Shown: piece after piece, positions 12,417 to 12,937 of the stretch
Numbering within the stretch: position 1 is the stretch's first letter
Layout: every line of letters starts with the position of its first letter
DNA from: an uncultured bacterium
Lineage (GTDB): Bacteria; Cyanobacteriota; Vampirovibrionia; Gastranaerophilales; Gastranaerophilaceae
Assembly: GCA_902797985.1 (NCBI GenBank)
Contig: CADBUZ010000005.1
Location: 1 to 64,000 of the forward strand
Direction of reading: 5' to 3'
Length of the DNA: 64,000 nucleotides
Position numbers and translations under genes: made by a program
Notes under the pieces: model-generated
Databases searched by the model: none
Seen by the model: the letters and a program-made list of their open reading frames with translations, nothing else
Told to the model about the DNA's origin: nothing

Positions 12417-12489
12417 GCCGATATGGCTCAGGTGGTAGAGCAACTGATTCGTAATCAGTAGGTCGGGAGTTCGAGTCTCCCTATCGGCA
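12417..12489 (+). tRNA. tRNA-Thr (anticodon CGT)
   Basis: A complete 73-nt cloverleaf can be drawn: acceptor GCCGATA/TATCGGC, D arm GCTC/GAGC, anticodon stem ACTGA/TCAGT with loop TTCGTAA (anticodon CGT, decoding ACG), 5-nt variable region, T arm GGGAG/CTCCC with the TTCGAGT loop, and discriminator A at 12489. The 3' CCA is not encoded. The last 15 nt of the gene plus 3 nt of flank recur at 12685-12702, inside the repeat cluster that follows. Confidence 0.95.
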
Positions 12490-12517
12490 TTTATTATATT
12501 TATAAAAAATGAAACAT

Positions 12518-12684
12518 ATAGGGTGACGAGAACTCCCTAGGGCTTTAGCCCTCAAAGAGTTCGACGAGGCGAGCAAAGGCATGAGCAACAAAGTTGCGAA
12601 AGGTGAAGCACGACTCAGCGGAAACGTTGAGTTTTCGATGGGAGTGCGAACGGTGCCGTTTAATGCGAGCCGAAGCACATAGTG
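12518..12684. repeat. palindromic intergenic repeat, copy A
   Basis: This unit begins ATAGGGTGACGAGAACTC and contains a nested hairpin: outer arms GAACTC (12530-12535) and GAGTTC (12557-12562) enclose AGGGCT-TT-AGCCCT. Further on are GCAACAAAGTTGC and the tract with AAACGTTGAGTTTTCG, GGGAGTGCGAACGG and CCGTTTAATGCGAG. Nearly identical text recurs in copies B and C. It is unlike the AT-rich coding sequence around it. Confidence 0.8.
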
Positions 12685-12702
12685 GTCTCCCTATCGGCAT
12701 TT
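12685..12702 (+). repeat. direct repeat of the tRNA-Thr 3' end
   Basis: The 18-nt GTCTCCCTATCGGCATTT is identical to 12475-12492, the T-arm/acceptor end of tRNA-Thr plus its flank. The two copies are 210 nt apart and bracket repeat copy A. This resembles an att-type duplication, but no integrase gene is present. Confidence 0.85.
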
Positions 12703-12704
12703 TT

Positions 12705-12828
12705 CAAGCCGAGCAAAGGCATGAGCAACAAAGTTGCGAAAGGTGAAGCACGACTCAACGGAAACGTTGAGTTTTCGGTGGGAGTGCGAACGGTTCCGTT
12801 TAATGCGAGGCGCAGTCGTGCAAACTCC
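12705..12828. repeat. palindromic intergenic repeat, copy B (lacks the 5' hairpin)
   Basis: It starts at CAAGCCGAGCAAAGGCATGAG and matches copy A from 12564 on with few differences (ACTCAACGG for ACTCAGCGG, GGTGGGAGTG for GATGGGAGTG, GGTTCCG for GGTGCCG). The GAACTC/GAGTTC hairpin module is missing at its 5' side because the duplicated tRNA end lies there instead. Confidence 0.8.
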
Positions 12829-12937
12829 ATAGGGTGACGAGAACTCCCTAGGGCTTTAGCCCTCAAAGAGTTCGACAAGCCAAGCAAAGGAATGAGCAAC
12901 GAAGTTGCGAAAGGTGAAGCACGACTCAGCGGAACGT
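12829..12937. repeat. palindromic intergenic repeat, copy C (3' truncated)
   Basis: It begins with the same ATAGGGTGACGAGAACTC hairpin module as copy A and follows it to about CAGCGGAACG, where the similarity ends abruptly at about 12937, next to an insertion-sequence-like terminus. Confidence 0.75.

Follow-up and report, generated by a model that had tools for sequence, protein, structure and literature searches.

A probable array of TLR-like palindromic repeats behind tRNA-Thr(CGU) in a Gastranaerophilales genome

Behind a tRNA-Thr(CGU) gene of an uncultured Gastranaerophilales bacterium lies a cluster of palindromic repeats in which the 3' end of the tRNA occurs a second time. The window analyzed here is the whole 64,000-nucleotide (64 kb) stretch that contains this cluster (contig CADBUZ010000005.1, positions 1 to 64,000), taken from a genome assembly (G000) that is 97.7% complete. 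A duplicated tRNA end could be the mark of an integrated element, of a local duplication, or of a repeat that spreads among tRNA genes, and the question is which of these the cluster represents and how its second tail came to match the tRNA in front of it. We consider it probable, at about two chances in three, that the cluster is an array of small, non-coding, non-autonomous palindromic repeats of the tRNA-linked repeat (TLR) kind, previously described behind the tRNAs of E. coli, and that these repeats spread in the manner proposed below.

The cluster behind tRNA-Thr(CGU)

The host of the repeats is an intact tRNA-Thr(CGU) at 12416..12490 on the + strand, identified by ARAGORN and by RF00005 (72.9 bits). 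Its last 16 nt, together with the TT that follows, make up an 18-nt stretch, GTCTCCCTATCGGCATTT, which comprises the 3' half of the T-arm, the 3' strand of the acceptor stem and the TT (tail copy 1, 12475..12492) and recurs exactly at 12685..12702 (tail copy 2). These are the two occurrences of GTCTCCCTATCGGCATTT on the + strand of the window, which bears out the duplication reported by an earlier sequence-only reading of this DNA. By eye, a trailer leads from the tRNA to unit A (12491..12524). Unit A starts 35 nt past the tRNA, on the same strand, with a left hairpin (GACGAGAACTCCC ... AGAGTTCGA, 12525..12564), the right arm of which matches the 5' half of the host T-arm. A structured body, denoted type Y, follows at 12565..12684 (aligned core 12571-12669), and the unit ends with tail copy 2. 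Next comes a second type-Y body, B, without a left hairpin of its own (12703..12827, aligned core 12711-12809), and then unit C (12829..12941), which consists of a left hairpin (GAACTCCC at 12841, GAGTTCGA at 12868) and an incomplete type-Y body with no tail after it. The cluster, all of it on the + strand, contains two complete copies and one truncated copy of a repeat with a type-Y core. At the tRNA-Thr locus of G004, a genome of the same genus, the repeated stretch was seen by eye to consist of the tail and the trailer.

The sequence-only reading had assigned the same two sequence elements to both of the copies that follow A. This is correct for B, which shares GCAACAAAGTTGC (12585 in A, 12725 in B) and CGTTTAATGCGAG (12657 in A, 12797 in B) with unit A, but not for C, which has GCAACGAAGTTGC at 12896, differing from the first motif by one base, and lacks CGTTTAATGCGAG because the copy stops near 12941. 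The contrast of the cluster with its AT-rich surroundings, also remarked upon earlier, is pronounced: its GC content is 51.9%, compared to 31.6% for the window, and none of 1272 windows of 424 nt is equally high. Two mechanical reading frames of 153 and 65 aa run over the cluster on the minus strand, and neither gave a Pfam match up to an E-value of 0.1, consistent with the earlier statement that no integrase is present in the cluster. A search of the window region and nine loci against Rfam returned, above the cut-off, just tRNA and, in E. coli, RtT; sub-threshold matches to GA-cis were located at the left hairpin. Elsewhere in the window, a weak match (19.6 bits) to the model of a second type of body, type X (see below), lies on the minus strand at 44947-45071.

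Tail copies and repeat bodies behind other tRNA genes

In G000, 38 tRNA places were read, corresponding to 37 distinct genes after removal of a second reading of Lys-ttt. A gene was scored as having a tail copy when its own tail, with no more than 2 mismatches in 14, was found within 500 nt downstream; the available downstream stretch was shorter for four of the 37 genes (Ser-cga, 44 nt; Ala, 176 nt; Glu-ctc, 329 nt; and Ile, 343 nt). A second tail was found at 12 of the 37 genes, namely Thr-cgt, Leu-gag, Ser-gga, Tyr, Val, Met-cat, Arg-tct, Gly-ccc, Pro, Ile, His and Leu-tag. There were no such copies on the other strand or upstream, and the tails of foreign tRNAs were found in 3 of 1274 pairs, all three of them neighbors in the Thr-Thr-Tyr tRNA cluster. 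When 3 mismatches were allowed, the numbers rose to 14 of 37 for own tails and 11 of 1274 for foreign ones. In G004, 14 of 39 tRNA sequences had a second tail (reverse control, none; foreign tails, 2 of 1424, both cluster neighbors), and in G033, which belongs to another family of the same order, three of 43 did, two of these being Pro genes that share one unit (reverse, none; foreign, 0 of 1720). The type-Y repeat itself occurs at 15 places in G000, several of which are near other tRNA genes.

The sequence-only reading had suggested a search for further copies that adjoin tRNA genes and carry the corresponding tail, and such copies are present across G000 and in relatives. This recurrence supports its idea of a small, non-autonomous repeat linked to tRNA tails. 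The other possibility that it had raised, a tandem duplication private to this strain, or chance events behind one tRNA, would be in keeping with the local tandem copies that do exist; it is contradicted by the recurrence across the genome and across species, and we give it practically no weight.

Type-X bodies lie in G000 behind seven tRNAs (Ala, Ile, Tyr, Val, Leu-tag, Leu-gag and Glu), and wherever the tail was readable it was the local one; behind Ala the contig ends before the tail, and behind Glu there is a shorter piece of tail. The X bodies behind five of these tRNAs are 0.91 identical to one another (0.87 with that behind Glu), compared to an identity of 0.66-0.77 between the X bodies of G000 and the X bodies that other genomes have behind the same tRNA. 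Since X is more alike within a genome than at the same tRNA elsewhere, we conclude that the body spreads and that the tail is local. Gene conversion within a genome may contribute to the likeness. Over all genomes, X bodies that share a host tRNA had a mean identity of 0.760 (44 pairs, maximum 0.97), compared to 0.707 (535 pairs) for bodies with different host tRNAs, part of the tRNA labels being read from the tail alone; this somewhat greater likeness of same-tRNA pairs implies that some copies were inherited in place. The presence of a near-identical body before different, host-matched tails at different tRNAs contradicts the earlier suggestion that the repeat is copied together with the tRNA tail.

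The same pattern was seen in the wider genome collection. Among 47 X ends, 26 had a tRNA upstream on the same strand in the stretch read, and 24 of these 26 carry the tail of that tRNA (0-2 mismatches in 15; 11 tRNA species), a proportion that is favored by the search pattern, which partly fixed four letters of the tail; the other two do not, and no upstream tRNA was in view for the remaining 21. A model of type X (R1) was run on a sample of 292 genomes of the phylum and had matches in 96, every one a member of the window's own family, with copy numbers that are lower bounds, since at most 13 candidates were scored in most genomes. Most X-bearing contigs carry the labels Candidatus Gastranaerophilales, Melainabacteria or rumen bin, and the single archaeal record among them contains no readable unit. 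The order Gastranaerophilales is itself a member of the Cyanobacteriota/Melainabacteria group.

Occupancy of a given tRNA is variable. Inspection by eye of the tRNA-Thr locus in 18 relatives showed units with various bodies at six and none at 12, one of which may hold a decayed unit; G001 and G007, from the window's genus, are among the genomes with no unit there. No pair of empty and filled sites at the same locus was found in the window's own genus; at tRNA-Thr, the relatives gave no such pair because the genes on either side differ.

Both bodies are structured. In an alignment of 35 X sequences, 14 of 26 base pairs had changes on both sides, and the covariation score was 0.357, compared to 0.130 (sd 0.010) for shuffled and at most 0.062 for slid alignments. 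For Y (18 sequences, RNAalifold, without a separate control), 14 of 26 pairs likewise had changes on both sides. Such compensatory changes might indicate that the units are kept for a selected RNA function, as sources of small RNAs cut from tRNA precursors, with the second tail as a 3' processing signal and the spread a secondary matter. PMC8144298 lends this some weight by stating that rRNA-linked TLRs of E. coli are transcribed and processed and that, in vitro, Hfq and CsrA bind to them; the same source describes TLRs as having been without known function before that study of three rRNA-linked ones. Structure is also expected of mobile DNA that is borne on hairpins, a given tRNA has different bodies in different species, and two thirds of the relatives inspected (12 of 18) manage without a unit at tRNA-Thr. 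We therefore regard selection for an RNA as a doubtful explanation of the units, if one that is compatible with our preferred account of repeats that spread.

The T-arm copy and the extent of the duplication

The typical order of elements behind a tRNA is a trailer or terminator, GAYGAGAAC, an inner hairpin, GTTCGA, the body, often CAAGACA, and the tail. The motif GAYGAGAAY followed by GTTY was found within 500 nt downstream of 15 of the 37 tRNA genes of G000 but not upstream of any; for two of the 15, the Thr genes before Tyr, the unit counted is that of Tyr. Nine of the 12 genes with a tail copy have the motif, those without it being Arg-tct, Leu-gag and Pro; at His and Met-cat, it lies solely past the first tail copy. 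The right arm of the left hairpin forms a pseudo-T-arm that follows the host. The base preceding GTTC (-1) matches that of the host at 27 of 31 loci, compared to 15.9 after shuffling, and the base before that (-2) at 21 of 31, compared to 11.8, and none of 2000 shuffles was as high at these two positions; the third and fourth bases were not clearly matched. Where the host loop has TTCA, the copy has TTCA in eight of nine cases, out of 10 copies with TTCA in total. Three loci without a recognized arm were dropped from this test, and some rows must be misread, since the arm was chosen by rule. Judged by its sequence, a unit looks like a partial copy of the 3' part of a tRNA with a body in its T-loop, placed behind the intact gene.

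The duplicated stretch extends past the tRNA to very different degrees: not at all at Val, for 59 nt at Ser-gga, and over a whole unit at Arg-tct and Pro. At tRNA-Ser(gct), it seems by eye to include part of gmk. With lengths from none to a whole unit, no single signature of duplication stands out. At this last locus (L005 and L054, on contig C40 of G000), the tRNA-Ser(gct) tail, a terminator and the 3' end of gmk form, by eye, two sets that are separated by about 1.5 kb and enclose a type-Y copy. Downstream of tRNA-Arg(cct) (L045, contig C20), we also noted by eye a stretch of tandem repeats, the other strand of which looks like code for a small, cysteine-rich repeat protein.

The tRNA-side junction lies at a fixed point, the T-loop, whereas the trailer is duplicated to a variable extent, as would follow if the tail, often together with some of the trailer, had been copied again. 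Part of this picture would suit site-specific integration, according to which the units are remnants or passengers of elements integrated at the tRNA 3' end and the two tails are attL and attR. The duplicated part of the tRNA, with the T-loop at one limit and the 3' terminus at the other, is a classic attachment region. Tyrosine recombinase matches were present in all eight genomes of the genus that were searched, with three in G000. For one of these (C6:520-1059), a type-Y copy (C6:3337-3378, L011) is located at a distance of about 2.3 kb; this type-Y copy has Leu-like tails, and the L011 stretch contains no tRNA gene. However, integration does not predict one body with many host-matched tails, since the circle released on excision has a single tail and would damage a tRNA of another kind. 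Neither of the two frames in the cluster is a recombinase gene, the corresponding unit in E. coli measures merely 178 nt, and in one genome (G021, below) the type-X body sits in a palindrome. Ordinary integration by an integrase, as the sequence-only reading had considered, is thus unsupported as the general route, and we think it quite improbable as the origin of the units.

Copies in hairpin loops and a proposed route of spread

Not all copies are linked to a tRNA. By eye, eight of the 14 X matches in G000 are followed by a tRNA tail (two of them not directly 3' of the gene), one has a split tail, one is cut off by the end of the contig, and four have no tRNA link. At L015, a 3 kb stretch that contains no tRNA, a type-Y copy lies between two identical 27-nt sequences in direct orientation, which resemble a terminator hairpin (1399-1425 and 1563-1589). 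The absence of a tRNA link elsewhere, which the sequence-only reading had held to count against it, therefore applies to part of the copies, namely these four of 14 type-X matches, one type-Y copy and the X copies inspected in three other genomes. In G021, G314 and G242, no upstream tRNA was in view for any X copy inspected, so X is not mainly associated with tRNAs in these genomes. The G021 copies inspected were seen by eye to sit inside the loop of an unrelated palindrome, ATCCTGAAC..GTTTCAGGAT, unfilled copies of which occur nearby, and no duplication of the target accompanies these insertions.

We scored the pairing between the flanks of 76 X copies. A score of 5 or more was reached by 27 copies, compared to 16% for re-dealt flanks, and a score of 7 or more by 12, compared to 3.1%; eight of these 12 came from G021. 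With G021 left out, 16 of 65 copies reached 5 (control 16.5%) and four of 65 reached 7 (control 1.8%). Residence of X in hairpin loops is therefore clear in G021 and weakly supported outside it, and a general rule of loop insertion leans mainly on one species.

Units of a mirrored kind were noticed upstream of several tRNA genes in G000: Leu-taa, Leu-tag, Lys-ctt, fMet, Pro, Met-cat and Phe (L043, L046, L020, L039, L035, L021 and L024, respectively). A mirror unit repeats the 5' end of the tRNA and its D-arm; the D-loop is occupied by a hairpin, mostly ACTCTGCCGAA..GAGAGG, and the unit is followed by the leader again and then by the intact tRNA; up to four occur in tandem. A 14-nt search with up to 3 mismatches recovered six of 38, the unit at fMet was found by eye, and the controls gave 3 or fewer, at Arg-ccg and Pro. 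Downstream of Gln and Gly-tcc (L002 and L012), the tail copies are split, by eye, by a hairpin, which is that of the upstream mirror units in reverse orientation.

A dedicated mobility enzyme was not identified among the four kinds searched (Y1 transposase, tyrosine recombinase, Cas1 and reverse transcriptase). There are three Y1 transposase matches in G000, of which the L158 copy has in-frame stops. The RAYT-type Y1 genes at L158 and L166 in G000 and at L159 in G002 lie amid classic GTAG palindromes; since GTAG repeats occupy the flanks read by eye in G000 (L158 and L166), the RAYT/Y1 transposase, though present, was rejected as the mover. In G003 (L160, contig C73), a Y1 transposase gene has two type-Y copies no more than about 600 nt away. 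Neither Cas1 (PF01867) nor reverse transcriptase (PF00078) had a match in the 97.7% of G000 represented in the assembly, and each had matches in three of the eight genomes of the genus; a reverse transcriptase supplied from elsewhere could possibly act on the units.

These searches bear on target-primed insertion, in which an enzyme acting in trans (a reverse transcriptase, a Cas1-like protein or Y1) would make a fixed nick in the T-loop and a second one in the trailer, and repair would copy the tail. Such a scheme accommodates the fixed junction and the variable duplication, it could draw on the Y1 matches in G000 (three, one of them with stops), and the direct repeat around the tRNA-free type-Y copy at L015 is of the sort that it might leave. 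Against it stand the lack of reverse transcriptase and Cas1 matches in G000, the company of GTAG repeats that the Y1 genes read there keep, and the G021 insertions, which by eye lack target duplications. We consider it unlikely. A duplication of variable length is more readily explained by template switching or another form of copying repair than by an enzyme that yields a fixed product.

The route that we favor for repeats of the TLR kind would begin with the body, which is probably what spreads, by entering hairpin loops. At a tRNA, the product that survives would be one in which the tRNA tail, often with some trailer, has been copied again from the T-loop on. Our best guess for the agent is switching of the template at hairpins during replication or repair, perhaps helped in trans. 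Units would subsequently be gained or lost through recombination between tails. They would be transcribed with the tRNA precursor, and by analogy with what has been proposed for the rRNA-linked TLRs of E. coli, the tail copy could serve as a processing site.

A broader version of this proposal is that TLRs are the tRNA-adapted form of general palindromic mobile elements that insert into the loops of DNA or RNA hairpins, the T-arm downstream and the D-arm of the upstream mirror units being such loops, and that copying of the tRNA end keeps the gene alive. We offer it tentatively and hold it to be possible rather than probable; if true, it would also explain the origin of the E. coli TLRs. For annotation, a duplicated tRNA 3' end alone does not mark an integrated island.

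Comparison with E. coli TLRs and other known repeats

The small dispersed repeats of cyanobacteria are hairpins of about 20 bp that enter the loops of structured RNAs, much shorter than the bodies of about 100-120 nt in the Gastranaerophilales units. Rickettsia palindromic elements are palindromic repeats of about 100-150 nt that lie inside genes or reading frames, by a mechanism that has not been explained. We know of no copying of tRNA tails in the former and of no host-matched tRNA tail in the latter. PMC2884548 describes the cyanobacterial repeats (Elhai et al. 2008) as very small and possibly mobile, and PMC3733652 describes RPE-1 of Rickettsia as interrupting a gene. The latter source also presents REP sequences with RAYT (Y1) transposases as GTAG-tagged, palindromic and non-autonomous. 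The units described here share with REP sequences their palindromic and non-autonomous character, and Y1 genes and GTAG palindromes do exist in G000; however, the tRNA units do not have the form of a GTAG hairpin and differ, by eye, from the repeats around the Y1 genes of that genome.

The closest likeness is to the TLRs of E. coli. According to PMC8144298, these have been known behind tRNAs since the 1970s, when rtT/RttR was described behind tyrV (Egan and Landy 1978), 22 of them were counted at ten loci in K-12 (Rudd 1999), and their last 18-19 bp are identical to the 3' end of the tRNA or rRNA that precedes them. No TLR-like repeats outside Enterobacterales were found in the literature at the level of titles and abstract openings. 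We surveyed 13 chosen K-12 loci with 45 tRNA genes. A repeated own tail was present in 12 rows, one of which re-finds that of a neighbor, behind Tyr, Lys, Arg and Pro, and eight of the 13 loci had no repeated tail. At proK, GATGAGAACCTCC..GGAGGTTCGA (GATGAGAACCTCC..GGGAGGTTCGA) is followed by a body and the tail, and at tyrV, GATGAGAAG..AAGGTTCGA likewise precedes a body and the tail; both loci have the left hairpin and T-arm copy of the G000 units.

The rtT unit was matched in 4655 of 5426 E. coli genomes. The other 771 gave no megablast match to the K-12 unit. Among 40 rows listed, eight had the tRNA joined directly to its native flank in one piece, and the others had about 278, 456 or 631-634 bases, equivalent to one, two and three units with a step of about 178 nt, except for one of 524. 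In E. coli M10, the site is empty, with purU, two tRNA-Tyr genes and narI but no unit.

The two groups thus resemble each other in several respects. The unit lies downstream of a tRNA, on the same strand in the window, and its 3' end is that of the host tRNA (18 nt in the window, 16 of them within the tRNA gene); several tRNA loci are occupied per genome (12 of 37 in G000); by eye, a similar body lies behind Lys, Arg, Pro and Tyr in E. coli, each with its own tail; the GATGAGAA motif and a T-arm copy are found at tyrV and proK; and tandem arrays vary by whole units. They differ in the sequence of the body, and no model matches in either direction: RF00391 (RtT), run on nine loci, matched at the E. 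coli locus alone and at none of the Gastranaerophilales loci, and R1 gave no match at the E. coli locus L111. As no sequence model links the two groups, we claim a shared layout and not descent. In E. coli, moreover, the short TLRs behind Lys and Arg are without the GATGAGAA hairpin, whereas the Gastranaerophilales units, in a different phylum, affect about one third of the tRNA genes, have bodies away from tRNAs as well, and are accompanied by mirror units upstream. The presence of a TLR layout in so distant a phylum, where it affects roughly one tRNA gene in three and combines a mobile body with a local tail, makes the origin of TLRs testable, including whether a hairpin element enters T-loops and how the tRNA end is copied.
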